The translations under genes and the position numbers were made by a program. From a virus, in IMG/VR virus record IMGVR_UViG_3300035698_024029, positions 1 through 21,744 of that record: a DNA stretch of 21,744 bases. One strand, 5' to 3'. The notes under the pieces are model-generated. The model did not search any database. It saw only the letters and a program-made list of their open reading frames with translations, and was not told the origin of the DNA. Shown here in pieces: positions 5,557 to 19,255 of this stretch. The first letter of the stretch is position 1, and each line of letters begins with the position of its first letter.

Positions 5557-6396
5557 TCACTTCCCGGAGGTGGTGTCCGTAGCAGCATCCCCTTCGGATT
5601 CACCAGAGGCTTCCACCTCAAGCAAATCCTCACCATTCTCCATTCCATTCAGAACGTCCCACGCCATGCGCAATTGTTGCATGGCAGCGGGGACACCATC
5701 TGTAGCCCGCCCTGCCCGGCCACCTTTGGTGAACAACTCTTCAACTTCCTTGGCCATATCCAAGGTACACCCTGCCGACAATCCACCGTGACGCCTCAAC
5801 ACTATCCCCGCACAGAAAAGACGATTCCGAATCGTTTTCTTTTCCTTAGTGGTTACTCCCCCAGAAGGTTTCTTCTTCTTCTTGGCCTTGGAATCAGGTC
5901 CCCACTCAGGCGGATTGGTCAGCTCAGGAATGCGTTTACACACACCAGCTACCACATCCCAGTCTCCACCCTCGTGATCACGTACGGACAATCGGTCATC
6001 ATCCATGCTCATAACCGTAGCCTCGTATTCATCATCCCCCGAATCCATCACCTCAACGTAACACCCCACCACAATATCGGTGAGATTTTCTGGTGGCTCC
6101 GGGGGGGGTTCGGGGGCCGGCTCGGCGGCTGGGTTTGGCGGGGCATCATCGGCCGATTTGGATTTTGACTTACCTCTGGTAGACGGACGGCTGATAATCA
6201 ACTCGTCTTCAGACCCTACCATTTTTTCCAAAACCCCCGCCAATGGTTCCTCCAAAGTCAACTCCAGATCCCCCAACTCAACAAGATGAACCACCTCATT
6301 CAGCTTGTCTTGTAACCGATTGGGTTTCCAACCCGGCGCAGCTCCAAACCCAGCCGCAACCACAACCGACACAGCATCCTTTCGACTCACGTTCAT
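5557..6396 (-). CDS. Phage protein with Tudor/SH3-like domain and proline-rich linker
   Basis: This 279-residue protein is of unknown function. It begins MNVSRKDAVSVVVAAGF, a short helical N-terminal domain (about 1-60). A low-complexity Ser/Lys then Pro/Glu-rich linker follows (70-105). A Tudor/SH3-like barrel candidate spans about 108-156 (VGCYVEVMDSGDDEYEATV, then SVRDHEGGDW). After a lysine-rich stretch (KAKKKKK) there is a helical domain (188-250: RNRLFCAGIVLRRHGG, MRMAWDVLN-like) that I recall from phage proteins of similar genomes. An upstream TTG (6417) is in frame, but ATG 6396 has GGGAGA at proper spacing. The gene sits alone between the duplicated leader and a strong terminator, so it is probably a separately controlled, possibly abundant protein. 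DNA binding is a guess from the basic patches. Confidence 0.8.
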   Translation of the reverse strand: MNVSRKDAVSVVVAAGFGAAPGWKPNRLQDKLNEVVHLVELGDLELTLEEPLAGVLEKMVGSEDELIISRPSTRGKSKSKSADDAPPNPAAEPAPEPPPEPPENLTDIVVGCYVEVMDSGDDEYEATVMSMDDDRLSVRDHEGGDWDVVAGVCKRIPELTNPPEWGPDSKAKKKKKPSGGVTTKEKKTIRNRLFCAGIVLRRHGGLSAGCTLDMAKEVEELFTKGGRAGRATDGVPAAMQQLRMAWDVLNGMENGEDLLEVEASGESEGDAATDTTSGK

Positions 6397-6403
6397 AGCA
6401 AAA

Positions 6404-6452
6404 TCTCCCTTAACCAAACCTTTCCCTTCGTTTGGGGGGACACGATCCCCCC
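6404..6452 (-). promoter_or_regulatory. Leader hairpins with loop GGA next to the SD, possible CsrA target
   Basis: On the minus strand a GGGGGG/CCCCCC hairpin (6447-6452/6434-6439) shares two bases with a CCAAAC/GTTTGG hairpin (6430-6435/6414-6419), so the two cannot form fully together. The second hairpin exposes GAAGGGAAAG in its loop, a GGA in a loop, and another GGA lies in the SD 17 bases downstream. Paired GGA sites of this kind are typical of CsrA-regulated leaders. The copy at 6533-6571 repeats both hairpins. Confidence 0.4.
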
Positions 6453-6473
6453 TGGTGTCACCTCAGTATTACT

Positions 6474-6502
6474 AGTATAACACAATTCATCGATCATTAC
6501 AA
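6474..6502 (-). promoter_or_regulatory. Candidate sigma-70 promoter, proximal copy
   Basis: This is the duplicate of the promoter at 6593-6621, with identical TTGTAA and TATACT boxes and the same 17-base spacer length. Conservation of both boxes while other positions changed supports function. It lies about 80 bases upstream of the ATG of the 279-residue gene. Confidence 0.55.
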
Positions 6503-6592
6503 GCACAAATGGAAGGGCGCCCCACGACCAAACCAAACCTTTCCCTTCGTTTGGGGGGACACGATCCCCCCTGGTGCCACCTCAGTATTACT

Positions 6593-6621
6593 AGTATAAC
6601 ACGATTCATCAATCATTACAA
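6593..6621 (-). promoter_or_regulatory. Candidate sigma-70 promoter, distal copy
   Basis: TTGTAA (6616-6621) and TATACT (6593-6598) are separated by 17 bases on the minus strand; the -35 box lies inside the end of the helicase gene. It would drive the 279-residue gene from the upstream repeat copy. Confidence 0.55.
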
Positions 6622-7994
6622 GCACAAATCGCAGGGCGCCCCACGGCCAAACAACCGGCAACATGAATTTGTCTCGATTCCCTAAACTCCTCATCCCTCC
6701 TCTTCAACCAATTTAACCTAGTCACCCCCTTTTGCTTATCGTCGTCAAGCATGTTTAGCCCTAGATTTGCCGTCACATGATCGTTTTTTGTACGTGAATC
6801 AGAAAAATTTCCTGCTTGTAGCAACTCTTTCGTATAGGATGCGGCGTCGGCCTGAGTTGCCGTAACGACCAAACAATGTAACTCCTGGGACAATCTGCGT
6901 AATCGTTTCCAGGTATCATCTATTTGATCCCGTTTCTCCCTGGTAAACGTAGGTGGAGCAAGCAAATCAGCGTAGTCAATAATTACTACATCGGCAACCC
7001 ACCCTTGACTTGCCCAGTCCATTATCATACCCGCCAAACTATCCGCCCCTAACGAAGACGACGGATGAACAGACAACCGCATCTGATTTTTACGTCTAGC
7101 TATTTTTGACCATACTCTAACTGCTTCCGTTGCCGACAACCCATTTTCCTGCTTCGTTAGTGTCTTCGGACCCAACTCAGGATCAATAAACTCTATGGGT
7201 ACAACCACCTCACGATCGCGTCGTGGCCGACCAGCCACCCTCATTCCTAATCGTCTCATCACTTGATTCTGAGACAAATCCCCTACTTCAAAATAGGCGA
7301 CCCGATTCCTCTGTCTAATAGCCCTTACCGCGATGTCAATCAACCACCACGATTTTCCACGCCCGAAGGCCCCCGTAATCGCCACAAAGGCTTCCCTACA
7401 AAACTCCCCGCCAATAAATTCACCCAACTCTTTAGGATACCAAATCAGTACGTCCGAATCGTCTTCGTCAGTAAATGCCCGGTGCCAGGGTTCATAGCTT
7501 TCCCCAGGATAAATAATCTCACTGGTTCCTAGCTCAACGTGCCTAGATAGTTTTACCCTATCCAAGGCTCCATCAACATCATCCCGCTCTAGATCCGACT
7601 CCAACCCATTGACTAACTCATACAACCTAGAAGAATTAAAGTGTCTCCCCGCCAAATCAATAACATACTCAGAATTCAATCGACCTTCTTCAGACACAAT
7701 GTCATCATAGATACGATCGAACTCATCTACATAATGCTCTAGTGCAGATACAGTTTCAGGATCGCTGTCCCGATGATTACCGATCCATTCATCCAGACGA
7801 GCAACCACACCACGGCCAATAGGAGCACTGTACTGCTTCCAGAATGCGATCGCCCACCCTCCGAGAAGATTGGCCCACCTGGATCGGAACAAGCCCCCGG
7901 GTGGCCAGTGAGGCGAAATTCGACTGACGACTATAGGGTCCGTCAGTAAACCCACTAGAATTTTTGCGGTTTGATTCCCAGAATATTGCTTCAC
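6609..7994 (-). CDS. DnaB/RecA-type replicative helicase
   Basis: This 461-residue protein has a RecA-fold ATPase in its C-terminal half. Walker A is GAFGRGKS (208-215), Walker B is VVIIDYADLL (336-345), and the DnaB-like sensor is VVTATQAD (376-383), followed by FSDSRTKNDHVTANLGLN, typical of DnaB-type helicases. The first 180 residues are not recognisable and lack an obvious DnaB N-terminal signature. It is probably the fork helicase, loaded with the help of the initiator-like proteins just upstream. The start is GTG 7994 with GGAAGGG about 10 bases upstream; an ATG at 8004 is out of frame. The last codons and stop lie inside the 119-bp duplication, so the end of this gene has been copied downstream. 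Confidence 0.88.
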   Translation of the reverse strand: MKQYSGNQTAKILVGLLTDPIVVSRISPHWPPGGLFRSRWANLLGGWAIAFWKQYSAPIGRGVVARLDEWIGNHRDSDPETVSALEHYVDEFDRIYDDIVSEEGRLNSEYVIDLAGRHFNSSRLYELVNGLESDLERDDVDGALDRVKLSRHVELGTSEIIYPGESYEPWHRAFTDEDDSDVLIWYPKELGEFIGGEFCREAFVAITGAFGRGKSWWLIDIAVRAIRQRNRVAYFEVGDLSQNQVMRRLGMRVAGRPRRDREVVVPIEFIDPELGPKTLTKQENGLSATEAVRVWSKIARRKNQMRLSVHPSSSLGADSLAGMIMDWASQGWVADVVIIDYADLLAPPTFTREKRDQIDDTWKRLRRLSQELHCLVVTATQADAASYTKELLQAGNFSDSRTKNDHVTANLGLNMLDDDKQKGVTRLNWLKRRDEEFRESRQIHVAGCLAVGRPAICACND

Positions 7995-8013
7995 GGCGGA
8001 TCATCCCTTCCCC

Positions 8014-9144
8014 CTAACCCAAAATTGCTTCTGGGGTTATACTACCTTTTTTCTCTCCCAACTCATGCAGGACCCTATCCACCAATGATTGATCACAAGT
8101 AAATTGTCCAGCGTCAATTAACATTCGAGATTTTGGTAGTTGTTGTCGCAACATCCTAATCACCTGGTCACGAATGCGTCCATCACATTGTTGCCCTTGA
8201 CGATCAACCCAAATTCTAGGGTGACCGGACCGATAACAATCACTGTACATAGTTTTTCGGGTAACTTTTCCATTAACACCATCCCCATTTTTTGCGATCG
8301 ATCGCTTCATGGCGTCTTGTATCTTAGTGAATTTACTCTGTAAATCAATTACCCTATAGAGTTTTGGTGTCCACGTATCTGCGTAATGATCGCGTAACCA
8401 TTCCAATACAGTTTTAATTTCATCAAAGCTTTTACTAGATCTAAGAGTATAAATCACTTGCTTGATCGTCGAAAGTTTAGCATGGGAGAAATCTAAATTA
8501 TGTAGTATTATTACTTCCTTATACAATAATGTTAGTGTTCGATCCGTACCGTCCATAAACCTATGAGATTTTATTCCTTTCTGTCTCAACTCTTTTTTTC
8601 CCGAAGCGGTGGCCGGTCGGCCGTTTAGGCCAACGGCCCTCCCCTTTTTTCTTTCTTGTTCTTTCTTCTTGATACCTTCGTCTGTCAAAAATGACAATTG
8701 CCGACTGTCATTTTCAGCAGAGCCTTCTGCCACTTCTGACAACTCTTCAGCGTTAGGGCTCTTGGATTGTGCCGTTTCTGACAATGGTTCAAATTCACCA
8801 CGAGAAGCATTAGCCTTTTTTTGTGCGTCTTTTTCAAGTTCCGCCTTTTTGATTAACGACCAAAGTGTTTCCATTAGTCGAGGTTTACCTCTGGGTGTAA
8901 TTGTTCTAAGTATCAATCTTCCGTTCCATTTTACTTTACGCAAATTCCCCATCATATGGGCGATTCGTGATACACTCAAACCTAGACAATCTGCAAAGTG
9001 ACCATCACTTGCATAACATCTACCGTTTTTTGCTAATCCATCGATTGCAGCTAAAAGTATCATTTCCTTTAGGGTTATATCTCCTGATTGAAATAGTTCT
9101 ACTATTTCAGGTGGAATCCACCATCCCTTTTTGGTTTTCTCCAT
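8014..9144 (-). CDS. Winged-helix replication-initiator-like protein
   Basis: This 376-residue protein starts MEKTKKGWWIPPEIVELFQSG and has a helix-turn-helix/winged-helix pattern over about 1-85 (ITLKEMILLAAIDGLAKNGRCYAS, then LGLSVSRIAHMMGNLRK). A polar, charged linker with SETAQ and KKKEQERKKGR follows, then a C-terminal domain of unknown type (about 215-376). This layout resembles phage replication proteins of the RepO/DnaD kind, and the gene lies directly before the DnaB-like helicase, as such genes usually do. Binding the origin and recruiting the helicase is therefore inferred. ATG 9144 is chosen over an upstream GTG (9162) because AGGAGA lies 7 bases before it. It is paralogous in its N-terminus to the next upstream gene. 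Confidence 0.72.
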   Translation of the reverse strand: MEKTKKGWWIPPEIVELFQSGDITLKEMILLAAIDGLAKNGRCYASDGHFADCLGLSVSRIAHMMGNLRKVKWNGRLILRTITPRGKPRLMETLWSLIKKAELEKDAQKKANASRGEFEPLSETAQSKSPNAEELSEVAEGSAENDSRQLSFLTDEGIKKKEQERKKGRAVGLNGRPATASGKKELRQKGIKSHRFMDGTDRTLTLLYKEVIILHNLDFSHAKLSTIKQVIYTLRSSKSFDEIKTVLEWLRDHYADTWTPKLYRVIDLQSKFTKIQDAMKRSIAKNGDGVNGKVTRKTMYSDCYRSGHPRIWVDRQGQQCDGRIRDQVIRMLRQQLPKSRMLIDAGQFTCDQSLVDRVLHELGEKKGSITPEAILG

Positions 9145-9188
9145 AAATAATCTCCTTAACACCCCCTGATGTTAGACTACCATGTAAA

Positions 9189-9590
9189 CTACCAATTTAA
9201 TTCAACTTCCTTAACTTCATCTTTTAGCTTTGGATCAATGTCATTACACATACTGTCCAACCGACTAAATGCAGATTGTAATAGTCGCTTGCCTTTCTGT
9301 GTAGTAGTTTGTTGTAATAGTGCAACACCCCTAAGAGACAACCTCCTAAGACGATAAATTGCTTCGTCTATTGCAGTCACATCACTCGACAATATCTCAG
9401 CCAATTGTATATCAGAGTGACCACACAAATCAATTTCTCCGACGTAGCAATCAACAGTGATAATAAGGGAAAACTGTAGTGGTGTGATTTGTCCTGAGTG
9501 TAATAGTTCTACTAAATCAGCAGTCACCCATAAACCACGAAAACCATCGACGACTTCATTGTGTAATTGATCTCTATTTTTTTGTTCCAC
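9189..9590 (-). CDS. Short winged-helix protein, paralogue of the initiator-like protein
   Basis: This 133-residue protein repeats the N-terminal domain of its downstream neighbour: GLWVTADLVELLHSGQIT (about 19-36) aligns with GWWIPPEIVELFQSGDIT, and the following helix-turn-helix segment (LAEILSSDVTAIDEAIYRLRR) aligns as well. The long C-terminal domain is absent. It may modulate origin binding or transcription as a partial copy. A TTG (9596) is in frame but lies too close to the SD (AGGG, 3 bases); the GTG at 9590 is 9 bases from it and is preferred. The start overlaps the upstream stop by 17 bases. Confidence 0.68.
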   Translation of the reverse strand: MEQKNRDQLHNEVVDGFRGLWVTADLVELLHSGQITPLQFSLIITVDCYVGEIDLCGHSDIQLAEILSSDVTAIDEAIYRLRRLSLRGVALLQQTTTQKGKRLLQSAFSRLDSMCNDIDPKLKDEVKEVELNW

Positions 9591-9969
9591 TTTCAATTGC
9601 CCTTTTCAAATGCTTGGCTCTGGTTAAAAGCTGCCATCGTTCCTTATCAGAATCATCCATAAACGGTGGGGGTTCGTCTGGTAGTACCACCTCTGGTTCC
9701 ATAACTTCGGCTGGTGAGACATTACCACCGGAGGGTTTTTGCTCTAACCATTTCAAGCAAGCTTGTACATTACCCGAAACGGCTGCCTGATATAGAGCAT
9801 CTTGAATACAATCCCACTCGATTTGTCTAATGATTATCAGCAAATTTGAATCAATTTGTAATATCTCTCTTAATTCCAAAATCGAGATACCACAAGTTTG
9901 ACAAGCATCTACTCTAGATGCACCTCCCGCCATCTCCCCTAAAAATTGATCTCTGTCAAAATCACTCAT
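9574..9969 (-). CDS. Helix-turn-helix protein, small-terminase-like
   Basis: This 131-residue protein resembles short phage HTH proteins often labelled small-terminase-like. FLGEMAGGASRVDACQTCGISILELREIL (9-37) has a helix-turn-helix pattern, followed by ALYQAAVSGNVQACLKWLEQKP (57-78), which matches the helical A.SG....CLKWLE.. stretch of that family. The C-terminal part is acidic and proline-rich, then basic. No large terminase gene is in view, so packaging is only one possibility; a role in DNA binding near the replication genes is equally likely. ATG 9969 overlaps the methyltransferase stop by 8 bases. Confidence 0.65.
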   Translation of the reverse strand: MSDFDRDQFLGEMAGGASRVDACQTCGISILELREILQIDSNLLIIIRQIEWDCIQDALYQAAVSGNVQACLKWLEQKPSGGNVSPAEVMEPEVVLPDEPPPFMDDSDKERWQLLTRAKHLKRAIESGTKK

Positions 9970-10561
9970 CGATTACTACTCCTACATAGAGCATTCCACC
10001 TTTTTCCATGTACGTATAAAATCGTTGACTCACAATGCGTTTGGGATGAAAGAATTTAACCAACCACGGACGAATCAACACTCGCCAATACATATTGAAA
10101 TAACGTCTCCTTTCGTTCTGGGGTAATAACTTCATGTGACCATCGGGATGATGGTACGGTCTATTTCTACGAAGTGATTGTAATCCCCCATCAGTTAGAA
10201 ATATCACCAAGGGATATTCAATTAAAGCGTTTCTACAGAATGACTTTAGAGCATCATATGGATATCCATAAGCATCCAAATCGGCTACTGAGAATGTTGG
10301 GGTAGAATCATTAAACGGCCAACTATCACAATCACCTTCAACCACATGAGCATTGGGAAGACGTTCGCGAAACCGTTGAACTCGAATAGGGTCGATATCC
10401 GCTGCCCAAATTGACCTATTCTTGTAAAGTTCTACAGCAATGTCACCATCACCACAAAAAGGAACATAAACGGCTCCCTCAGAAGTAGCTTTAGGAAGTA
10501 ACACTCTACGTAGTTTAATCTTCCTAAATATATCGTGGTGTTGACGTTTTTGCTCAAACAT
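9962..10561 (-). CDS. Class I SAM-dependent methyltransferase
   Basis: This 199-residue protein has a Rossmann SAM-binding motif I, VYVPFCGDGDIA (31-42), an acidic ribose-binding position in WAADIDP (52-58), and a DLDAYGYP segment (94-101) at the position of the catalytic motif. The DxDxYG pattern differs from the DPPY/NPPY of adenine methyltransferases and recalls the DPFG of RNA guanine methyltransferases, so the substrate is open. It overlaps the radical SAM gene upstream by 8 bases, a pairing that suggests joint action on one substrate. An upstream TTG (10594) is in frame; ATG 10561 with AGGAG 10 bases before it is preferred. Confidence 0.72.
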   Translation of the reverse strand: MFEQKRQHHDIFRKIKLRRVLLPKATSEGAVYVPFCGDGDIAVELYKNRSIWAADIDPIRVQRFRERLPNAHVVEGDCDSWPFNDSTPTFSVADLDAYGYPYDALKSFCRNALIEYPLVIFLTDGGLQSLRRNRPYHHPDGHMKLLPQNERRRYFNMYWRVLIRPWLVKFFHPKRIVSQRFYTYMEKGGMLYVGVVIDE

Positions 10562-11342
10562 CCAATCCAATCTCCTGGGGTAATTCAAGTCCAACTACTT
10601 CCTTGTAAGATTCCTTCCACTTAATCAAAGGGTGATCCTTTAATTGGTGATAAACTTTCAATACCATTTCATCAGTTTGACCTCCTAAGATACACTGAAT
10701 AGCTTCTTCATTTGTTCCATCAATACACCGCTTCCGAACCTGATTCATTTTACCTATCCAAATAGAATCAGTTGTCCAGGGTGTCAGATAGTCAATTAAC
10801 TCTAAAACATTTTCAGAGTCAAGAAGAGGTTCACAAGAAACTGACGTTTGAAAGCCCCAACTATAAGCTAATCGGAGAGCCCCTGTTCGTTCTAGAAATG
10901 TTGGAGCCCCAGGTTCCCAATAGTGTAAAATATCTTGGTCACAAGCTCCAATAGTAAATCGGAATAGAATTTGATCTCTTCTTGAAAAACAATGTTCACA
11001 AATTTGTTGTATACAATCCAGATGGGGTTTTGACGTTATAAGTAATTGATTACCCACTTGAAGGTTTTTTTGAATTACCACTAAACAAGCATCTAAATGC
11101 TCTGGGGTAATATCATGTGTGGTGGGAAACATAACTCGACCACCTGTTACTTTATCACGACGTTTCGTTATTTGCCCTTTGCGAACGTGATTGTATGTTG
11201 TTCCCCACTCGTTTGCATCTTGGATTCGGCGATATTGAAAAGCCATTGATCTGGCGTAACAATATCTGCACTGATGACTACACCCTAATACACAATTATC
11301 TGATGCTACTGACCATTCCTTAGTACCAGAAACCTTTGCCAT
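10554..11342 (-). CDS. Radical SAM protein of the SPL/phage Gp37-Gp68-like type
   Basis: This 262-residue protein carries CSHQCRYC (C21, C25, C28), the CxxxCxxC radical SAM cluster motif, in the context NCVLGCSHQCRYCYARSMA. VMFPTTHDITPEHLD, LLITSKPH, RFTIGACDQDILHYWEPGAP, SVSCEPLLD and SIWIGKMN are all conserved blocks I recognise from a widespread family related to spore-photoproduct-lyase-like and phage Gp37/Gp68 proteins. It should use a 4Fe-4S cluster and S-adenosylmethionine; the substrate is unknown. ATG 11342 has AAGGAA 7 bases upstream. It follows a 222-base structured leader with its own promoter and is coupled to the methyltransferase gene. Confidence 0.85.
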   Translation of the reverse strand: MAKVSGTKEWSVASDNCVLGCSHQCRYCYARSMAFQYRRIQDANEWGTTYNHVRKGQITKRRDKVTGGRVMFPTTHDITPEHLDACLVVIQKNLQVGNQLLITSKPHLDCIQQICEHCFSRRDQILFRFTIGACDQDILHYWEPGAPTFLERTGALRLAYSWGFQTSVSCEPLLDSENVLELIDYLTPWTTDSIWIGKMNQVRKRCIDGTNEEAIQCILGGQTDEMVLKVYHQLKDHPLIKWKESYKEVVGLELPQEIGLDV

Positions 11343-11424
11343 GGTTCATTTCCTTCATATTTGATAGGCGCATAAAATGAGCCTGGCCCGAGGCATCGGC
11401 AGGCCAGACTCTAAGAGGCGACCA

Positions 11425-11469
11425 CAGAAAGGTCGTCGACAGGAAGGTAATTTCCAGAAAGGTAATTGT
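11425..11469. repeat. Three 15-bp direct repeats, iteron-like
   Basis: Copies start at 11425, 11440 and 11455 with the shared core CAG(A/G)AAGGT on the plus strand. An inverted copy (CCTTTCTGTG) lies near 11492-11502. Exact 15-base periodicity in a non-coding region suggests protein binding sites, either an operator or part of a replication origin. Confidence 0.7.
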
Positions 11470-11517
11470 TCAGAGTGAATGATTCAAACCCTTTCTGTGA
11501 TTCCGATGCTGCACGTC

Positions 11518-11547
11518 AAAATATCAAATCGGGTCGATGCAAGTCAA
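11518..11547 (-). promoter_or_regulatory. Candidate sigma-70 promoter for the radical SAM operon
   Basis: TTGACT (11542-11547) and TATTTT (11518-11523) are separated by 18 bases on the minus strand, just after the stop of the 88-residue gene. It would produce a leader of about 170 bases before ATG 11342. Confidence 0.5.
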
Positions 11548-11564
11548 GTCCACTTTTCCGACAA

Positions 11565-11831
11565 TTACTTTTTAGGTATTTCAGATGACAAGTACTCAAT
11601 TCTTTGGGTAAATCCTACAAACTTTCCGTCAATCACTAAAATCTGAGTGCGAATTCCTTCACTATCGTAATACTCCAAACGACGATTTTCAAGTATCGCA
11701 CTAAATCCTTGAATCACCGCTTCTACGTCGTTCGTAATCGTGGGGTATTTATCCCATGGACCTATATCCCTCAGTAAAATCAATTTCTGTGTAACTTTAA
11801 CAATTGTTAGTCTTGCATGAGCGTTGAGCAT
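11565..11831 (-). CDS. Small conserved phage protein, 88 aa
   Basis: This 88-residue protein is of unknown function. LTIVKVTQKLILLRDIGPWDKYPTITNDVE (8-37) is a pattern I have seen in small hypothetical proteins beside phage primase genes, with a C-terminal part predicted as beta-rich (RRLEYYDSEG, QILVIDGKFVGF). There are no cysteines and no membrane segment. ATG 11831 has AGGG 6 bases upstream and lies 7 bases after the primase stop. It ends the primase transcription block, just before the structured leader. Confidence 0.75.
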   Translation of the reverse strand: MLNAHARLTIVKVTQKLILLRDIGPWDKYPTITNDVEAVIQGFSAILENRRLEYYDSEGIRTQILVIDGKFVGFTQRIEYLSSEIPKK

Positions 11832-11838
11832 TTGAACC

Positions 11839-12714
11839 CTAACTTAAACAATGTAAACGTAATCGAGCCACTTCATTGTGATCAGCCTCTCCCGGGTCAA
11901 TCGCATTGGTCTCAACAATTTCTGTTGTTCCGTGACATTCACGAAGTTGAATATAGTATTGACGGGCAGCTCGTCGTCCAGTTGCATCATTATCTAGACA
12001 AATGAACCTACGGGGAATTCTCTCTAGTAGATTCATTTGTCGATTGGATAAATGGATTCCAAAGGTTCCTACTGAACCAGGACCTAATCGCCAAACATCG
12101 GCAATTCCCTCACAAATCAAAACGGAGTGACGAACGTAATCCCACCCGTAGAGTAAATCACTTGTTGGTATAGATCCTCTAGTACCCGCGTGAAGATATT
12201 TTCGTTTTTGAGTTGCGATTGCTCTAGTGCTCCACGACACTAAAATACCATCTCTGTAAATGGGTATCCAAATTCGCCAAGGAAAATCCACCGCCAAGCC
12301 TATCCCCTTTATCCCCCATAAACGAATCAATTCGTTTACATTGAATCCCCTACTTTTTAGATATTTCAGATGACAAGGACACAATTCTCCTAATTGTTTG
12401 GGTAAATCCAAACTATGAATTGGTGATACAAAATCACTGGTATCCTCCGACAAATCAAGGGTTTTAGCTAAAGTGATTGCTTCCCGAAGTGAAATACCTA
12501 GAAGTTTAGTTAGTACATCTCCAAACCGCTGTCGACCACAACGCCAGCATGTAGCAGATCGCCCATTGAGAGATAATCCTAAATGCCATTGGTTTGCCCC
12601 TATACCATCACAATCAGGACAATCAACACCAACCCATCCATGCCGCACATGGTGGTGATCTCCCCCTTTCATGTACGGTACATGATATTTATCCAATAGG
12701 TGAATCAAATTCAT
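11839..12714 (-). CDS. DnaG-like primase with zinc finger and TOPRIM domain
   Basis: This 291-residue protein starts with a zinc-binding module (CPDC at 32-35 and CWRC at 56-59), the template-recognition finger of DnaG and phage primases. A central segment follows (YLKSRGFNVNELIRLWGIKGIG), then the TOPRIM signature: LICEGIADVWRL with E202 and ICLDNDATGRRAAR with D241 and D243. It lacks a C-terminal helicase domain, in keeping with the separate DnaB-like gene. It is shorter than bacterial DnaG (about 600 residues). It should make RNA primers for lagging-strand synthesis. GTG 12726 is in frame, but ATG 12714 has GAGG 7 bases upstream and is preferred. Confidence 0.9.
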   Translation of the reverse strand: MNLIHLLDKYHVPYMKGGDHHHVRHGWVGVDCPDCDGIGANQWHLGLSLNGRSATCWRCGRQRFGDVLTKLLGISLREAITLAKTLDLSEDTSDFVSPIHSLDLPKQLGELCPCHLKYLKSRGFNVNELIRLWGIKGIGLAVDFPWRIWIPIYRDGILVSWSTRAIATQKRKYLHAGTRGSIPTSDLLYGWDYVRHSVLICEGIADVWRLGPGSVGTFGIHLSNRQMNLLERIPRRFICLDNDATGRRAARQYYIQLRECHGTTEIVETNAIDPGEADHNEVARLRLHCLS

Positions 12715-12889
12715 TGGGAACCTCACAAGAGTCTACACTATTTATTTCAATTGACCCATCCAACATTGATTTAATCAAATCCACCATCACCCTTGACATA
12801 CTAACGTTTTTTTTGATACACAACATTTTGAACAACAGGCGCTCTCGGGGAGTAAGTCCATAAACTTGAATAGCTACTAGTTGTGTCAT
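12689..12889 (-). CDS. 66-aa helical protein, possibly DNA-binding
   Basis: This small protein starts MTQLVAIQVYGLTPRERLLFKML and continues CIKKNVSMSRVMVDLIKSMLDG, a helix-turn-helix-like arrangement after a short beta strand that resembles ribbon-helix-helix proteins. Its C-terminal 15 residues are acidic. It overlaps the SNF2 gene by ATGA and the primase start by 26 bases, so it is translationally linked to both. The SD is AAGGGA. The function is not recognised; a DNA-binding or regulatory role is inferred from the fold pattern alone. Confidence 0.68.
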   Translation of the reverse strand: MTQLVAIQVYGLTPRERLLFKMLCIKKNVSMSRVMVDLIKSMLDGSIEINSVDSCEVPNEFDSPIG

Positions 12890-14253
12890 ATCAATCCCTT
12901 CCTTAAAAGTCTGTCTTGTAATTGGTCATATATATTTAAGTGACTGTCGCATTCTTCTCCATCCAATACACTACTAACTACCTTCCATTTAGACTGCAAA
13001 ATCTCACATAAATCCTCTTCAATGGTTCCATTAGCCACTAAATACCATATCCAAGCAGTTCGGTGCTGGCCAATTCGATGTATCCTATCCTCGGCTTGCA
13101 CCATATTTGCAGGTACTACATCCAATTCAACAAACACCAGAGTATTTGCAGCCGTTAGATTTAACCCCACACCAATTGATTGTATCTGCCCTATAAGCAC
13201 TCTTGTAGTAGTATCAGACTGAAATTGGTCGACTTTAGCTTGACGTTTTCTACCGGTCACCGTCCCATCAATAAATACACTAGAAGCTTTGATCCTACGA
13301 CTGAGCAATTGAATCATCTTACGATGAATTGCCACTACAATCAATTTTTCATTGGGGTATGACTCCAACCATTTGTTGACCCAATCAACTACAGATTTTG
13401 ATTTCAATCGGGCAGCCAAAGTTTTCAAGTAACTGATTCTGGATACTGCTTTTGACTTTTTAGCACGTTCCCACCGATCTTCATTGATTTCCTTTAACCA
13501 ACCCAAAAAGTGACTGTTAGCTTGTTTATATTCACCCGGGTCTTCAATGGGTAGTGCAAATATACTACGCACTTTTTCGGGTAAGTCAGTCAAAACTTCG
13601 GATTTTCTTCTCCGAATTAAGCAAGTATTCCGCAATACAGCATTCAATTCCTTGGTATGAGTTGCCCCATCATAACGCCAACCCCACGGGGTCCATTGGG
13701 GGTCACAATATCTATTCAAATATTTGAGGCGAGAGCTAAACGTAGCAGGACAAATCAACCTTAAAAATGGGTATAACTCTACTGGACGGTTTACTAAGGG
13801 AGTTCCACTAATACCAATTACAAATTTGGCATCACACGCAAGTAGTTTTGCAGCTTTTGACCGTTGAGTCCTAGGGTTTTTTATGTATTGAACCTCATCC
13901 AACATCACACAAGGAAAATGAATTTTTCGTAGGCGTTCTTTCCAATAAGCCAATATATCGTAGTTGATAATTACCAACGAACGCCGAGGAATCATTATCC
14001 CTTTCCGTCCCTCCAATACCACTGAGTTACACCCTAACCGATTAGCCTCACGTTCCCATTGATATTTAACTGATCCTGGACAAATCACCAGGGCTGGACG
14101 AACATCAGTAGTTTTATACCACCACCATAGAGCCTGAACGGTTTTTCCTAACCCCATTTCATCGGCAAGTAGAGCCCGCCCCTTGAATTTGGTTATCAAT
14201 TCAACTCCATGTTGTTGATAATCATAGAGTTGCACAGTCACATTAGAAACCAC
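12886..14253 (-). CDS. SNF2-family DNA helicase/translocase
   Basis: This 455-residue protein has the complete two-lobe SNF2 core. Lobe 1 shows the Q-like YDYQQHGVEL (10-19), Walker A DEMGLGKT (31-38), Walker B DEVQ (119-122) and motif III SGTP (149-152). Lobe 2 shows GVGLNLTAANTLVFVELD (361-378) and motif VI AEDRIHRIGQ (387-396). It is compact, with almost no accessory domains, similar to phage and SMARCAL1-like minimal translocases. It may remodel forks, displace proteins or support recombination during replication. The start is GTG 14253 (AGGAA about 8 bases upstream), overlapping the zinc-ribbon gene by 16 bases. Confidence 0.92.
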   Translation of the reverse strand: MVSNVTVQLYDYQQHGVELITKFKGRALLADEMGLGKTVQALWWWYKTTDVRPALVICPGSVKYQWEREANRLGCNSVVLEGRKGIMIPRRSLVIINYDILAYWKERLRKIHFPCVMLDEVQYIKNPRTQRSKAAKLLACDAKFVIGISGTPLVNRPVELYPFLRLICPATFSSRLKYLNRYCDPQWTPWGWRYDGATHTKELNAVLRNTCLIRRRKSEVLTDLPEKVRSIFALPIEDPGEYKQANSHFLGWLKEINEDRWERAKKSKAVSRISYLKTLAARLKSKSVVDWVNKWLESYPNEKLIVVAIHRKMIQLLSRRIKASSVFIDGTVTGRKRQAKVDQFQSDTTTRVLIGQIQSIGVGLNLTAANTLVFVELDVVPANMVQAEDRIHRIGQHRTAWIWYLVANGTIEEDLCEILQSKWKVVSSVLDGEECDSHLNIYDQLQDRLLRKGLI

Positions 14254-14504
14254 GGGAATTTCCTTTTAGGAATGTTGCCTCTATCAACTTGATATTCCAA
14301 GTTTGATTGATTCTTCAACACTATAGGAATTTCTATCTTTCCATTAAATCCTTTACATGGGTATCGACACACCATCCCACACAAACAACATAATGACCCA
14401 CAGGTAAAGAACCTAACAGAACAAACGTCGGACGTACGAATGATTTCTTTTGCTCCACAAGAAGGACATACCCCATTCCTTTCAATTTTTGATTTGTTGA
14501 ACAT
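14238..14504 (-). CDS. Zinc-ribbon protein, 88 aa
   Basis: This 88-residue protein has an N-terminal zinc-ribbon pattern: CPSC at 13-16, then CGSLCCLCGMVC (35-46) and C50, giving several candidate ligands. The rest is basic and hydrophobic (EIPIVLKNQ, KRKFPWFLM). It lies between the sigma-like gene and the SNF2 gene, 6 bases after the former, with a weak SD (AGG). A transcription- or DNA-associated role is a guess from the cysteines and neighbours. Confidence 0.7.
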   Translation of the reverse strand: MFNKSKIERNGVCPSCGAKEIIRTSDVCSVRFFTCGSLCCLCGMVCRYPCKGFNGKIEIPIVLKNQSNLEYQVDRGNIPKRKFPWFLM

Positions 14505-14510
14505 AACAAC

Positions 14511-15023
14511 CTATTGACTGTAAAGGGCCAATCGAATCTCATAAAAAGCGTATTGAATGCGATCAATTGACCAACCTAAACTCAGTAAAGCGTCACAAAG
14601 GGCCACACGAATTTCCTCTGGGTTTTTTGGACACGAGTCTATAGCGGTGCCAGCAAGTGAAAACTCTAGTAGCATTTTGGCGTCTTCAGACAAATCACTG
14701 GAATCAAACGGTTCGTGATTACTTTCACTATAGGATACTACTATAGAATCGTCTATGGATTGATTAAACCAATGAGGAGATTCCCTTCGGTGTTTTTCCC
14801 GTAGACGATTCTTTACGGTAACCCATACCCAAGTCGTCAACTTGGCTTTTGTATAGTCAGCACAACGATAGGCTTGAACAAATCCTAACAAACCTTCGCT
14901 AAACCATTCATCGTAATCGTAATACTTTAGACTATGCTCCCTGAAGAATTTGTTTACTACCGTGTGAACCATTTTCACTAGATCATAGTATGTCTCTTCA
15001 AAGGCTTCTACCTTCAAATCCAT
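14511..15023 (-). CDS. Sigma-70-family-like RNA polymerase sigma factor
   Basis: This 170-residue protein shows a sigma region 2 pattern: YDYDEWFSEGLLGFVQAYR (35-53) and AKLTTWVWVTVKNRLREKHRR (60-80), the core-binding and -10 recognition helices. The C-terminal 45 residues (PEEIRVALCDALLSLGWSIDRIQYAFYEIRLAL) form helices but do not match a standard region 4. It probably redirects host RNA polymerase to phage promoters during infection; an anti-sigma or core-binding decoy cannot be excluded. ATG 15023 has GGGAGA 7 bases upstream. A 62-base gap precedes it, without a convincing promoter. Confidence 0.72.
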   Translation of the reverse strand: MDLKVEAFEETYYDLVKMVHTVVNKFFREHSLKYYDYDEWFSEGLLGFVQAYRCADYTKAKLTTWVWVTVKNRLREKHRRESPHWFNQSIDDSIVVSYSESNHEPFDSSDLSEDAKMLLEFSLAGTAIDSCPKNPEEIRVALCDALLSLGWSIDRIQYAFYEIRLALYSQ

Positions 15024-15303: not shown

Positions 15304-15780
15304 CTAATCCTCCATTGGTAATCTAGCGGCGGTCTGAACAGTGATATCTTCCAGTAGAAGTAAATCAACTACTGGGGCGAAACGTACAGCTCGGGGTTTT
15401 TGCTTCACCCCCATATGGTAAGCTTTGCGTTGTGGAACCCCCAAGTAATCACGCAGAAGAATAAGCAGTAATCGAGCATACTGGGGAGAATGCCAAGAAA
15501 GAGTAGGTAGTAGAAAATGGGCTATCTCGTGTAAAACCACTGGGGTTTGTCGAGCCCACACCGGCAAGTTGATTTCTCTAACTCCACCCCACGCTTTTTT
15601 AGTACCACGACCATCCCGAATTTTCGGAAGTGGTCGATTACATTTATAGTCAAAATGTACTCGTCGAACTAACGCCTTGCATTCATCTAGGGTTAGTTTA
15701 TCCTTCAATTGGTATCTACAACTAACTCGACCTTCCCAACGATAAACTGCCCTGCGTTGAGAATCCCTAAGCTGTTTCAC
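15304..15780 (-). CDS. SprT-like zinc metalloprotease
   Basis: This 158-residue protein contains VVLHEIAHFL (81-90), the HExxH zinc-binding motif with catalytic E85, and a likely third ligand H97 in LSWHSPQYARLL. That spacing and the downstream helix are typical of SprT/Spartan-like minimal metalloproteases and of a related phage family. Such enzymes can degrade DNA-protein crosslinks; here the substrate is unknown. The start is GTG 15780 with AAAGGA upstream. The first 12 codons are part of a short tandem duplication with the preceding region. Confidence 0.78.
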   Translation of the reverse strand: MKQLRDSQRRAVYRWEGRVSCRYQLKDKLTLDECKALVRRVHFDYKCNRPLPKIRDGRGTKKAWGGVREINLPVWARQTPVVLHEIAHFLLPTLSWHSPQYARLLLILLRDYLGVPQRKAYHMGVKQKPRAVRFAPVVDLLLLEDITVQTAARLPMED

Positions 15781-15836
15781 TTGGTCATCCTTTCCTTGGT
15801 AATCTGCCCTGGTTGAGAATCCCTAAGCTCTTTCAC
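15744..15836 (-). repeat. 37-bp direct repeat that duplicates the SprT gene start
   Basis: Bases 15744-15780 and 15801-15836 match except for two substitutions and one deleted base. The second copy contains its own GTG (15836) with an SD (GGAG) and opens a 19-codon frame ending in TGA at 15777, which overlaps the real SprT start as GTGA. In the upstream gene's frame the same bases encode its last residues (SERA). Confidence 0.88.
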
Positions 15837-16119
15837 TGCGCTTGTCTCCAGGGCTTATTCCTCTTCGGACAACCCGAGAGCCTCCGAATCTTGTAGGTGC
15901 CGACCGGGCTTGACTATTCTCGATGTTGCTTGTGATTCTACTCACGTCCCAGACCTCTCCCTCTATCAACATAGAGTCATCCCCGAGTAGCAACCGGATG
16001 GCCTCGTCTGCTCGATGGGCTGTCACGCGACCTACTTCTATCCACTTGGCTACTCGACAACGATTACCCCAGTGTTCATAGTGCTTCCAGACACGTTTTT
16101 TCACTAGGTACTCCGCCAT
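15823..16119 (-). CDS. Small hypothetical protein, 98 aa
   Basis: This 98-residue protein begins MAEYLVKKRVWKHYEHWGNR and has a compact N-terminal part rich in basic and aromatic residues (to about residue 60), then a polar, arginine-rich tail. I do not recognise a family. A TTG one codon earlier is in frame; ATG 16119 with GGAGGTGA just upstream is preferred. The SD is formed by the last codons of the previous gene (AEGGD). Its end lies in the 37-bp repeat at the SprT start, so the C-terminus may be recently altered. Confidence 0.65.
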   Translation of the reverse strand: MAEYLVKKRVWKHYEHWGNRCRVAKWIEVGRVTAHRADEAIRLLLGDDSMLIEGEVWDVSRITSNIENSQARSAPTRFGGSRVVRRGISPGDKRSERA

Positions 16120-16493
16120 CAATCACCTCCCTCTGCATTCGTGACCTCTAGCCCACGGAAGTTCGGCAAATCAACATCAGAAAACCATGGGGTGTAGTCG
16201 TCCGGACCGTGCTGCGACCTGCGCGTCCACCTCTTACACCACCGCCGTATGTATTTCCTCTGCTTGACCGTAGCAGGCCGGAAACCAGTCCATAACGGAA
16301 AGTCCGTCTGAAGATACCTGGTCAGTTTCCACCAACCAGACAAGTCCATTTGATACTGGCAATCCGTGCTGTGTGGGAATATCTTGTCTGCAATCCATGT
16401 GTGGCAACCAAGATCACCGGCGTGCATCTCGGCTTCCGGGGAAAGCCACCCATTTTCCGGCAGAGCCGATGATATTGGATTGTCGCTCACCAT
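16119..16493 (-). CDS. Hypothetical protein, 124 aa, with AEGG tail
   Basis: This 124-residue protein begins MVSDNPISSALPENGWLSPEA and has several Trp-rich segments (DLSGWWKLTRYL, RRWCKRWTRRS). Its function is not recognised. A longer TTG-started frame exists, but ATG 16493 follows GGGAGGTGG closely. The final residues TNAEGGD are encoded by GCAGAGGGAGGTG, which also serves as the SD of the next gene. HAGDLGCHTW and C76 are not a recognisable metal site. Confidence 0.62.
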   Translation of the reverse strand: MVSDNPISSALPENGWLSPEAEMHAGDLGCHTWIADKIFPHSTDCQYQMDLSGWWKLTRYLQTDFPLWTGFRPATVKQRKYIRRWCKRWTRRSQHGPDDYTPWFSDVDLPNFRGLEVTNAEGGD

Positions 16494-16729
16494 CCACCAC
16501 CTCCCTCTGCTTTCGTTGCCCTGTCTAGAATCCGTCGTACTTCCTTCCACGCTATCCGTTTGCTGGGACAAACCGCCACAAGGTACACAACGTCACAGCC
16601 GACTCTAGACCGCACAACATTGTAGCCTGGAGCATAAAAGCAACGCAACCACGTCCACGGATTCCACCAGTACAGTTTAACCTCTGGTTCGATCCACAAC
16701 TCCATGTTACCAATTAGGTATTTTTGCAT
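16487..16729 (-). CDS. Small Trp-rich hypothetical protein, 80 aa, with AKAEGG-like tail
   Basis: This 80-residue protein begins MQKYLIGNMELWIEPEVKLY and includes WWNPWTWLRCFY, an aromatic stretch that could be a membrane-surface helix, and later VYLVAVCPSKRIAWKEVRRIL. The family is not recognised. ATG 16729 follows GGGAGGTG closely; the GTG one codon upstream is less likely. It ends RATKAEGGGGW, the gene-end tail shared by its neighbours, and overlaps the next start by 7 bases. Confidence 0.6.
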   Translation of the reverse strand: MQKYLIGNMELWIEPEVKLYWWNPWTWLRCFYAPGYNVVRSRVGCDVVYLVAVCPSKRIAWKEVRRILDRATKAEGGGGW

Positions 16730-17109
16730 CACTCACCTCCCTCTGCTTTCGCAGACTTCTCGTCCAGTCGTTTTTGTTCTATCACTCTACAGTTTAGCGA
16801 CCGATGGGGAGCCGTGGGGCTTATCCACGTACCACACTTGAATAACCAAGCGTCATCGTGTAGATTGAATTTGCCTGGTGATTTACAGTATGGACATTTG
16901 TTAGGACGGCCCCGGCAGAATTCCACGTCTTGTGTCACCCCTTCCCCCTCTGTGTTTGCAGCGTCTCGAATAATTTTCGTGTGTATTCGTTGGATCTCAC
17001 CGAACAAATCCGGGTCCTCATACTCAAAACCCCTCAGCCCGAACCCTCTACGGTTGCTGAGGTCTACCCAGATTTGTTGTGCGGCCTTTTTGGCCCAAGC
17101 GTTACTCAC
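16729..17109 (-). CDS. Zinc-finger-like small phage protein, 126 aa
   Basis: This 126-residue protein has an N-terminal helical part (SNAWAKKAAQQIWVDLSNR) and a C-terminal zinc-ribbon-like segment: C65 and CPYC (72-75), then AWLFKCGTWI, and a later CRVIEQKRL. CPYC...LFKCGTW is a pattern I recall from small phage zinc-ribbon proteins. It ends AKAEGGE, the shared tail. The start is GTG 17109, overlapping the previous stop as GTGA, with GGGAGG 7 bases upstream. Confidence 0.66.
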   Translation of the reverse strand: MSNAWAKKAAQQIWVDLSNRRGFGLRGFEYEDPDLFGEIQRIHTKIIRDAANTEGEGVTQDVEFCRGRPNKCPYCKSPGKFNLHDDAWLFKCGTWISPTAPHRSLNCRVIEQKRLDEKSAKAEGGE

Positions 17110-17510
17110 TCGCTACCTCCCGCCGCTTTCGCGACTTGCTCGGTGCCGTAGCACTCTTTGATCGGCCGGCTTGTTGTACCGGTGGTGAATATCAGCCAGA
17201 CGCCACCGGAGGTCCATTCAATGCGGTCGATGGCGTGTCGCAGGAGGCGTTTTGGTTTGCCGTACGACCAACAGAGAACCTCCACTTCCGGCGCAATCGG
17301 CGTGCCGTCGGGAAGCGCGAGGGAGGTTTTCCGAAGGCTCCCCAGCTCAGCCTTCAGCCGCTTCACCTCGCCGGGAGATGCAGCGATCGCGGGCAAGGGG
17401 TCGTCATCGTCTCGCTCGATGTATTTGGCCAGTGTGTTCGCCAACGTACCGGGCGGCTCAGCCAGCGCCATTTCGTAGGCCCAGCATTCGGTTGGGGTCA
17501 TGTCGTCCAT
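17106..17510 (-). CDS. GC-rich paralogue of the 206-aa Ea22-like protein, C-terminal domain
   Basis: This 134-residue protein shares its C-terminal 70 residues with the 206-residue gene at 17746-18366: LPDGTPIAPEVEV (66-78) against LPDGTLIAPGVEV, RIEWTSGG against RITWINSG, and KECYGTEQVAKAAGG against SECWGTYEAAQAAEG. The DNA is visibly more GC-rich than the paralogue and neighbours. ATG 17510 is chosen because GGAGG lies 8 bases upstream; ATG 17525 (five codons longer, weaker SD) is an alternative. Its function is unknown; a coiled-coil-like stretch (VKRLKAELGSLRK) precedes the shared domain. Confidence 0.66.
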   Translation of the reverse strand: MDDMTPTECWAYEMALAEPPGTLANTLAKYIERDDDDPLPAIAASPGEVKRLKAELGSLRKTSLALPDGTPIAPEVEVLCWSYGKPKRLLRHAIDRIEWTSGGVWLIFTTGTTSRPIKECYGTEQVAKAAGGSE

Positions 17511-17552
17511 CGCTTCATCCTCCATTGTTTTCCCGCGGCCAAGGTTACGGTG

Positions 17553-17744
17553 TTATGGTGTAAATCCCCCCCGACTGTCGATACGCGGGTCTGGATTGTG
17601 GGAATATCGCTTGTCTTCAGACCAACCACACTCGCAGCCCCAGGGGCCGTATATCATGCACACGCCGTTGTGGACCTCGTCCCGGCAACATACACACCCG
17701 CACTCAGGGCACAGTATCGAGTCGTCATCGGCCATGTTGTCCAT
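17553..17744 (-). CDS. Cysteine-rich zinc-binding-like protein, 63 aa
   Basis: This 63-residue protein begins MDNMADDDSILCPECGCVCC and continues with C30 and WGCECGW, giving up to eight cysteines in a zinc-ribbon-like arrangement. A longer GTG-started frame overlaps the previous gene and is unlikely. ATG 17744 has AAGGTG 6 bases upstream, and that SD lies in the last codons of the 206-residue gene (AAEGE). The role is unknown. Confidence 0.6.
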   Translation of the reverse strand: MDNMADDDSILCPECGCVCCRDEVHNGVCMIYGPWGCECGWSEDKRYSHNPDPRIDSRGGFTP

Positions 17745-17745
17745 G

Positions 17746-18366
17746 TCACTCACCTTCCGCCGCTTGTGCAGCTTCGTAAGTTCCCCAACACTCCGAGGAG
17801 TATCTCCCAGTAGTGCTTCCACCCCATTCTAGATAAGCACCACTATTAATCCAAGTAATCCGAACAATCACCTGGGAGGTAACTTTATTCGGAGGATTAT
17901 TTAAGCGAAAGAACACCTCCACTCCTGGAGCGATCAAAGTACCATCGGGAAGCTTTAGAGGAATTTCTTGTAGTATCTTTAACTCAACCAGCAAATACGG
18001 TACATCCTGGCGAGCATTCGCGATGAAAACCATATTATTCATCGTTGCATCGTTTGAATGGACGGGGGTAGCAATCGTATAACGCGCCCCCCTTTTTTTC
18101 ACTTGCTGACAATGAGGTTCTATCTGACAATTAGAATGGCGTATGGCTTCCCACGGGGCGGCCATAGCCGAAAAGCACCGTTGGACTATTTCCTTGATTC
18201 TATTGGGGTTTTTTGTTGTAAAATGTTCCGAAAAGAAATCGAATTGATTTCTATTCTCTATCTCTTCGCATAACACCATAAAATCTTCGGCGGGTATTAC
18301 AACACATCCTGGAAAAAGATTGGTTGGTGTTACAACCCTTCGTTTGATTGCTTCCAAGTTAAACAC
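17746..18366 (-). CDS. Ea22-like phage protein, 206 aa
   Basis: This 206-residue protein contains VFIANARQDVPYLLVEL (113-129), a motif of a widespread phage family related to Ead/Ea22-like proteins, usually of unknown function. CFSAMAAPWEAI (64-75) probably corresponds to the family's ATPGPW segment. A coiled-coil-like stretch follows the motif, then a C-terminal domain (LPDGTLIAPGVEV onwards) shared with the GC-rich paralogue at 17106-17510. It ends AAEGE, whose codons form the SD of the next gene. The start is GTG 18366 with GGAG 9 bases upstream. Confidence 0.7.
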   Translation of the reverse strand: MFNLEAIKRRVVTPTNLFPGCVVIPAEDFMVLCEEIENRNQFDFFSEHFTTKNPNRIKEIVQRCFSAMAAPWEAIRHSNCQIEPHCQQVKKRGARYTIATPVHSNDATMNNMVFIANARQDVPYLLVELKILQEIPLKLPDGTLIAPGVEVFFRLNNPPNKVTSQVIVRITWINSGAYLEWGGSTTGRYSSECWGTYEAAQAAEGE

Positions 18367-18788
18367 TATTCAGGTCTCCCTGGTTTATAAACACTAAACA
18401 GTTTAGTACCCACACTATCTGGGATACCTTGACTGTTCAGCCATAGGATATGCTGATCAAGATCATCAATTGAACACGGCCGAATGAACCCCATTTTACA
18501 CAATCCCAAATGCTCCATCATCCCCAACGGCATCACCAACCCTTCGATTCGATCGTTTGCAATAGTCAACCGGGCAGGTTCAAAACGTGGGTGTTGAAAA
18601 CCCATGGCCATGGTTGTTTCAGTTGCTTGACAATCCCGACAACACGGTTGACCACTTGCTCGCAACAGTGCTGGAAAACTTGGTAGAGGCATTACACTAC
18701 GTGATTGTATCTGACCTTTCATCGCCAATTCAAGGCATACGGAACATGGTATTTCCGAAAGATCGTCAAATGCCCGTGGACTATTCAT
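18366..18788 (-). CDS. Hypothetical phage protein with CxxC motifs, 140 aa
   Basis: This 140-residue protein has CSVC (15-18) and CCRDC (49-53), probably a zinc site, followed by ARLTIANDRIEGLVMPLGMM and GFIRPCSIDDLDQHILWLNSQGI. I recall similar IANDR...GL.RP....LD.H..WL patterns in environmental phage proteins of unknown function. ATG 18788 overlaps the previous stop as ATGA, and GGAAGA lies 8 bases upstream. No enzyme signature is visible. Confidence 0.68.
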   Translation of the reverse strand: MNSPRAFDDLSEIPCSVCLELAMKGQIQSRSVMPLPSFPALLRASGQPCCRDCQATETTMAMGFQHPRFEPARLTIANDRIEGLVMPLGMMEHLGLCKMGFIRPCSIDDLDQHILWLNSQGIPDSVGTKLFSVYKPGRPE

Positions 18789-19255
18789 GATTCATCTTCC
18801 AATGCTTTCGCGGTTATCTCGGACAAGATAGCTCGTTTTTCCCTCTCGACGGCGCGCAGGTCGATTCCAAAAAACTGGGCGAGTAGCTGCTCTCGGCTTT
18901 CGTTGATTGGCAGACACCAGCAGGTGGGCAAATCGCGTGTGGTGGTATCTGGTCGTGCCAAGCATATCCCCTGCGAATCCAACCACTCAAGGAAGTCGCT
19001 TATCGCCCGGCTTTCGTCCTGCACGTTTGCCATGCGGTCACACTCTGGACTATTTATCACCTCTCCCCCGCCGGTGACGACAGCTACTTCCACGTTAACA
19101 AACGACACCGCAAGCGGTTCATCGCTGCCTCTCACCCGAATCGGACCAGCGTCACAAATTGCCATCTCACAAATCTCAGCGAGTTCGTCTGAGTCTATTT
19201 CCACCCCTGCATTGTCGACAGCATTTACAACCTGAAAATTGACTACAAATTTCAC
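18785..19255 (-). CDS. Hypothetical phage protein, 156 aa
   Basis: This 156-residue protein has an N-terminal beta-rich part (MKFVVNFQVVNAVDNAGVEI) and a C-terminal part with ISDFLEWLDSQGICLAR (85-101) and SREQLLAQFFGIDLRAVEREK (119-139). The ISxFLEWL and LLAxFFGID blocks recur in hypothetical phage proteins; the function is unknown. The start is GTG 19255 with AGGGG upstream. The end, AKALEDES, uses GCGAAAGCATTGGAAGATGA and looks like a decayed version of the AKAEGG gene-end tail found downstream. Confidence 0.72.
   Translation of the reverse strand: MKFVVNFQVVNAVDNAGVEIDSDELAEICEMAICDAGPIRVRGSDEPLAVSFVNVEVAVVTGGGEVINSPECDRMANVQDESRAISDFLEWLDSQGICLARPDTTTRDLPTCWCLPINESREQLLAQFFGIDLRAVEREKRAILSEITAKALEDES

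Follow-up and report, generated by a model that had tools for sequence, protein, structure and literature searches.

The complete virus record IMGVR_UViG_3300035698_024029, 21,744 bases in length and referred to here as the window, contains a run of small genes (15,823–19,255) that are joined by six copies of a block of approximately 32 nucleotides (nt). The block is repeated beyond chance, is conserved as nucleotides and not as a peptide, lies directly at translation starts and is found beside unrelated genes of other phage lineages. We put the probability at roughly 0.6 that this shared gene tail works as nucleotides, in the role of a portable translation-start module, a reading drawn from sequence. 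The element would drive initiation or reinitiation, its stem-loop may contribute, and it may travel with the gene downstream. The original prediction for this DNA had proposed that a recurring gene-end tail doubles as the Shine–Dalgarno sequence (SD) of the next gene and could serve as a site for shuffling small genes; this interpretation is partly supported.

The six copies at the gene joints

The copies, J1 to J6, occupy gene joints between positions 16117 and 18817 on the minus strand, where the window genes named here also lie. In an ungapped alignment they read GCGAAAGC-(A/G)G(A/C)-GGGAGGTGA, followed by a stop and a start that overlap or abut. A covariance model (R1) was built from 19 copies, including all six from the window, and window E-values between 3e-10 and 1e-6 are therefore those expected of a training set. 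J1 (16117–16148, ACGAATGCAGAGGGAGGTGATTGATG; 34.7 bits, E = 1.4e-7) joins a 124-amino-acid (aa) gene, with its stop at 16119, to a 98-aa gene with its ATG at 16119, while J2 (16491–16522, ACGAAAGCAGAGGGAGGTGGTGGATG; 31.5 bits, E = 1.3e-6) joins an 81-aa gene to this 124-aa gene (ATG 16493). The best window copy is J3 (16727–16758, GCGAAAGCAGAGGGAGGTGAGTGATG; 43.5 bits, E = 2.8e-10), between genes of 126 and 80 aa; J4 (17107–17138, GCGAAAGCGGCGGGAGGTAGCGAGTG; 32.1 bits, E = 9e-7) joins a 139-aa gene to the 126-aa gene, which has a GTG start. J5 (17744–17775, GCACAAGCGGCGGAAGGTGAGTGACATG; 35.2 bits, E = 1e-7) joins a 206-aa gene to a Cys-rich gene of 63 aa (ATG 17744), and the diverged copy J6 (18786–18817, GCGAAAGCATTGGAAGATGAATCATG; 31.5 bits, E = 1.3e-6) lies between genes of 156 and 140 aa. 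Stop and start meet as TGATG at J1 and J3, GTGA at J4 and ATGA at J6, by a 7-nt overlap at J2 and across a 1-nt gap at J5.

Five clear junctions and a weak sixth were thus recovered where they had been predicted, and at every junction the joint supplies the SD of the next gene, as had been proposed. The encoded tail had been given as KAEGG(x) or AAGGS, which needs minor correction: J4 encodes VAKAAGGSE, J5 encodes AAQAAEGE rather than KAEGG, and J6 encodes TAKALEDES. The proteins that precede the tails are mostly unrelated, again as described, the one exception being the 139-aa and 206-aa proteins, which are paralogues across their C-terminal ~90 residues (shuffle z = 25). This paralogy could account for the likeness of J4 and J5 but does not explain that of J1 to J3.

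When the six copies are compared in pairs, the 9 nt that precede the SD agree on average at 6.9/9 positions, compared with 2.4/9 for random in-frame blocks from the same genes, and none of 100,000 random in-frame draws matched this value. When positions were scored with a leave-one-out weight matrix, the five clear copies ranked first to fifth of 43,450; J6 ranked sixth, with 16.7 bits under a matrix built without it, in keeping with its description as a decayed copy. The 3′ half of the block is what any strong SD beside TGATG would yield, whereas the 5′ half, GCGAAAGC, is explained neither by the SD nor by codon bias, the grounds on which the prediction might have failed. J6 was also considered as a plain native C-terminus, and this was rejected: the C-terminal half of the 156-aa protein resembles phrog_21869 proteins of actinobacteriophages, whose C-terminal ends are without the block, yet in another phage (G394) the joint before a homologue of the 140-aa gene is a full copy. 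Because a full copy precedes the homologous gene there, J6 is better taken as a diverged copy.

Recurrence in other uncultured phages

Pattern scans covered 2.9 million viral contigs. An exact 17-mer gave zero matches, and a looser pattern gave 36 single matches, near the chance level; two copies within one contig (L038) provided the first lead. A scan for GCNGMGGGAGGTGANTGATG returned 19 stretches, several with a repeated block. At least five further lineages of uncultured phages carry the block, four of them with two to four copies each: G389 (which is L038) at 832, 1656 and 506, plus degenerate joints; the single lineage G391/G392 with four copies (4925, 4545, 4177 and 3941 in G392); G393 at 10189 and 9815; G394 at 9329, 9590 and 10047; and G395 with one copy at 27494. 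The consensus of the block outside the window is NAAGCCGC-NNAM-GCGGC-GGGAGGTGAGTGATG, and its spacing from the ATG or GTG is consistent. The tails are therefore not confined to a single lineage, and the check that had been suggested, a search of other phages, finds this block where different genes meet.

Genes that flank the copies are almost all unrelated, both within and between phages. Three homologous pairs are found around them: the two paralogues of the window; the 140-aa gene, whose G394 homologue (63% identical) comes straight after a full copy, the genes upstream differing between the two phages; and one gene of G389 and G393, which is near copies but not directly behind them.

What is shared is a nucleotide element and not a peptide. 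The upstream gene reads most copies in frame 0, as A-A-x-A-A-G-G-E. Frame 2 is used by the 63-aa gene before the G389 copy at 832 (...RERGGR) and by the 62-aa gene before the G394 copy at 9329 (...NRRIGGR), and frame 1 by the 77-aa gene that spans the G394 copy at 9590 (...KPPKRREVSD), while the copies at G393:9815 and G394:10047 are outside long open reading frames (ORFs). Since the block is read in three frames or lies outside genes, the peptide is not the conserved thing. The frame-0 Ala codons are, in addition, almost fixed (GCC, then GCG-GCG) in phages that use all four (GCC 0.22–0.47, GCG 0.16–0.34). A C-terminal tag on the upstream proteins, for example a degradation or localization signal, would fit the many copies that encode A-A/K-x-A-A/E-G-G-E in frame 0; it is already contradicted by the other frames and by the fixed synonymous codons, and can be given almost no credence. 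The residues added to upstream proteins (KAEGGE, AADAAGGE, RERGGR and others) would be a by-product of the reading frame. The proposal that the tail, and not the gene, is shared consequently holds for the nucleotides of the junction and fails for the encoded KAEGG peptide.

Searches beyond these phages returned little. Among viral contigs, no close relatives were confirmed with the SNF2-like helicase, the 139-aa protein, the DUF932 protein or the 139/206 alignment as queries. Cultured phages gave zero matches to the window DNA and to the 139-aa and 140-aa proteins, and only unconvincing matches (E ≥ 0.3) to a consensus tail query. The element, allowing up to two mismatches, is absent from 388 Verrucomicrobiota genomes, a group to which a radical SAM-like protein had pointed (45% identity in a Kiritimatiellae genome); the 139/206 domain has one weak match there, which contains a stop. 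A single look-alike, GCGGC-GAAT-GCCGC-GGGAGGTG (GGGAGG), was seen at L084:17590–17621 in G401, a phage with CsrA, and was excluded from the family. In an unrelated phage without CsrA (G407; L087–L089), a perfect 6-bp hairpin, TCGGCA-CGAA-TGCCGA, lies directly 5′ of GGGAGGTGATG near 37987 on the minus strand. The G391 contig L071 encodes, at 6238–9069, a homologue of a large 667-aa G389 protein, and it is this homologue that has a Hint/intein splicing domain (PF13403).

A putative start module, its relatives and its rivals

The proposed element of ~32 nt comprises a short stem-loop (GCCGC-NNAM-GCGGC), an extended SD (GGGAGGTGA, complementary to the 3′ end of 16S rRNA) and a stop that overlaps or abuts the next start. 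Eight nt of the extended SD are complementary to the usual anti-SD. Placed before small accessory genes, such an element would provide each of them with a strong ribosome-binding site, in most cases coupled to the preceding gene's end: a ribosome that finishes the upstream gene, or one that is recruited directly, would meet the extended SD a few nt before the next start and beside the overlapping stop. The start would be independent of the preceding gene and its frame, and therefore a small gene carrying the block could sit behind almost any gene. Homologous or illegitimate exchange may carry the element along with the gene that follows it. Accessory genes of phages, which often act against the host or its defences, turn over fast, which raises the question of how a new small gene comes to be expressed at once; a portable start module indifferent to the preceding gene and frame would, if true, be a concrete answer. 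The sequence of the element also allows such genes to be discovered in uncultured phages by motif only.

A 5-bp stem with a tetraloop is likely but unproven. The 14 nt before the SD can fold in this way, to the consensus GCCGC-NNAM-GCGGC, in J3, J4, J5 and most copies outside the window. J3 reads TCTGC-GAAA-GCAGA followed by GGGAGGTGAGTGATG, with 5/5 pairs and two compensatory pair changes relative to the consensus arms (TCTGC/GCAGA versus GCCGC/GCGGC); J4 (GTCGC-GAAA-GCGGC, then GGGAGGTAGCGAGTG) and J5 (GCTGC-ACAA-GCGGC, then GGAAGGTGAGTGACATG) also form 5/5 pairs, each including one G-U. Over the 19 copies, 86% of cells are paired, and covariation is 0.167, a value reached by 11 of 500 shuffles, compared with 0.111 when shuffled. 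Among 14 sites chosen independently by 3′ arm and SD only, the 5′ arm pairs along its whole length in five (binomial P ~5e-7 at a background of ~1%), in a sample that includes related phages, so that the sites are not independent. Rfam 15 gave no match above the gathering score at the element (two tRNAs only, across five sources), and the integron attC core sites GTTRRRY and RYYYAAC are absent, by inspection, from the 19 aligned copies.

Several observations weigh against the module or its parts. The stem is unformed in J1 and J2 (2/5 pairs each), is broken in J6 and is partly broken in G389c, G392b, G394a and G395; shuffling the stem hardly alters the predicted accessibility of the SD (0.46 versus 0.42, P = 0.08), and hairpins abutting the SD are not generally enriched in control phages. 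Coding rich in Ala (GCN-GCN) also promotes a stem of this kind. Because the stem is broken in several copies and its shuffling barely changes accessibility, a structural role is not established; the hairpin as an SD insulator was discarded, the accessibility difference being a weak trend at most. The copies in other phages were first found with a pattern that contains the SD, so that their resemblance across the SD partly reflects how they were found. Finally, the element phages have distant core genes in common, and part of the similarity may therefore reflect common descent.

The closest known systems come from cluster K mycobacteriophages (PMC3203893) and cluster EF Microbacterium phages (PMC7302621): the start-associated sequences (SAS) and extended SAS, whose function is unproven and for which a role in translation initiation has been proposed. 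As in SAS, a short asymmetric repeat recurs within a genome at the ribosome-binding sites of many genes from different families, with an SD core and conservation that reaches beyond it: the repeats are directly 5′ of starts of different-family genes (six in the window, two to four each in G389, G391/G392, G393 and G394, and one in G395), and the 5′ block is conserved, against the in-frame null, beyond pairing with 16S rRNA. In cluster K, an inverted repeat stands immediately 5′ of approximately half of the sites; here, a 5-bp stem is found in three of the six window copies and in most elsewhere, with modest covariation, and it is fused to the SD, whereas SAS arms are 17 bp. SAS favour gaps of more than 50 bp and are tied to a cluster, while the present element usually overlaps or abuts the end of the upstream gene, is spread over several phage lineages with little common gene content, is present as adjacent copies in runs of small genes and differs in sequence. 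The cluster K consensus GGGATAGGAGCCC has two 3-mismatch matches in the window (6437 and 6556), below the chance expectation and not at the element. The element is best seen as a different version of an SAS-like, putative start signal and is not filed as a member of SAS; the module, if correct, would extend this kind of sequence beyond the two actinobacteriophage clusters.

Termination–reinitiation at overlapping stops and starts (TGATG, ATGA) is well established (PMC6728339), and most copies similarly set TGA against or over the next ATG or GTG with an intragenic SD; coupling of the generic sort, however, does not require conserved sequence 5′ of the SD. One alternative to the module is that the joints are ordinary strong SDs with stop/start overlap, the rest being codon bias and paralogy of neighbours. 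SD-coded ...GGE* ends with TGATG, without the 5′ half, do occur in unrelated phages (L060, L061, L063, L067 and L069), and two of the upstream genes in the window are paralogues, but the similarity of the 5′ half exceeds any in-frame draw and the same block recurs in other phages and other frames. This account is already contradicted by these data and is very improbable. A second alternative, put forward in the original prediction, is that the element is kept mainly as a short homology for inserting or swapping small genes, the SD being a bonus. Gene-boundary (‘linker’) sequences of lambdoid phages have been proposed as recombination points, and by description they too are short conserved sequences at joints of unrelated small genes. 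Unrelated genes do lie between direct copies, the 140-aa gene follows different upstream genes in the window and in G394, and G+C across the window ranges from ~0.41 to 0.61. A G393 gene 49% identical to G389 24884–25243 is separated by three small genes and two copies from a large gene with 64% identity to G389 25528–27531, where the corresponding G389 interval is ~285 nt and has no copy. Copies are no more alike within a phage (identity 0.71) than between phages (0.72, P = 0.78), and the same is true of the 5′ part (0.66 versus 0.64, P = 0.24), so recent copying inside each phage is not the main source. Phage Rad52-like recombinases, moreover, tolerate diverged substrates (PMC3945230). Against this stand the absence of any recombinant with a breakpoint inside the element among the phages compared, the identity of G391 and G392 here, because of which no recent exchange can be read from them, the short length for homologous exchange of 32 nt at ~28% divergence, and a position and spacing that are those of a start signal. 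Recombination as the main purpose of the element is thus possible but unlikely. The shared gene, the differing syntenic interval and the lack of clustering by phage are indirect evidence for exchange and fit either elements that arrive with their genes or a shared motif kept by strong purifying selection; the portable start module would be consistent with cassette exchange, without proving recombination at the element.

Regulation by a phage-encoded CsrA was also considered. CsrA (PF02599) is encoded in the window (gene at 4360–4509 within 4330–4578, minus strand; E = 3e-21), where it is a possible but unproven partner, and in G389, G391, G394 and G395. The gene is thus present in five of the six element lineages, the exception, G393, being a 14-kb fragment. 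Only one of 30 other virus records (G401) has the gene (hypergeometric P ~9e-5). CsrA might bind the GGA in the extended SD and control the small-gene run jointly, as in CsrA-controlled leaders, which resemble the element in an SD-overlapping GGA and, in most element phages, a phage-encoded CsrA. The phages are, however, partly related and perhaps share a host type, so that the association may be historical, and G392 (68 kb, a fragment of the G391 lineage) lacks CsrA. A GGA is present in any strong SD; each block has one, and in most copies it lacks the A that comes first in the usual ANGGA, for AGGGA is found only in J1 to J3 and CGGGA in most other copies. The loops, mostly NNA[AC], have no GGA, and the element has neither an ANGGA hairpin loop nor a second GGA at a conserved position. 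The link is a lead, not a result, and a CsrA operator is a doubtful reading, although the co-occurrence offers this class of element a testable partner. Similarly low odds attach to a broader cassette system, in which one element would mark interchangeable small genes across distantly related uncultured phages, supply a ribosome-binding site in any frame and let phage CsrA control the set post-transcriptionally.

Neighbouring genes and other features of the window

Family profile searches gave no confident assignment for any protein of the run 15,823–19,255. No family match was found for the 98-aa gene 3′ of J1 (15823–16119), the 124-aa gene between J2 and J1 (16119–16493), the 80-aa gene between J3 and J2 (16487–16729) or the 126-aa gene between J4 and J3 (16729–17109), which has a CxxC motif. 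The 139-aa gene upstream of J4 (17106–17525) was identified by pairwise protein comparison as a paralogue of the C-terminal part of the 206-aa gene upstream of J5 (17746–18366). Between them, downstream of J5, the 63-aa Cys-rich gene (17553–17744) has a weak match to phrog_31468 (E = 0.0025). The run is completed by the 140-aa gene downstream of J6 (18366–18788) and the 156-aa gene upstream of it (18785–19255). Base composition suggests imported genes, with a G+C content of 0.50–0.61 at 16001–17500 compared with ~0.41 at 8,000–15,000.

Beside the run, a 158-aa protein (15304–15780, minus strand) carries a metallopeptidase-like motif, VVLHEIAHFL (HExxH), without a Pfam match. Two radical SAM-like proteins are encoded on the minus strand: one at 4481–5422, with a weak Pfam match and a homologue in G391 (31%), and one at 10554–11342, without a Pfam match, which is 45% identical to a protein from a Kiritimatiellae genome and 24% identical to proteins of Acidianus two-tailed virus that carry a radical SAM annotation. 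At 6393–6694, the stretch between the 286-aa and 461-aa genes is present as two tandem copies ~119 nt apart, with GGGACACGATCCC at 6437 and 6556; the overlapping ORFs of the two are similar.

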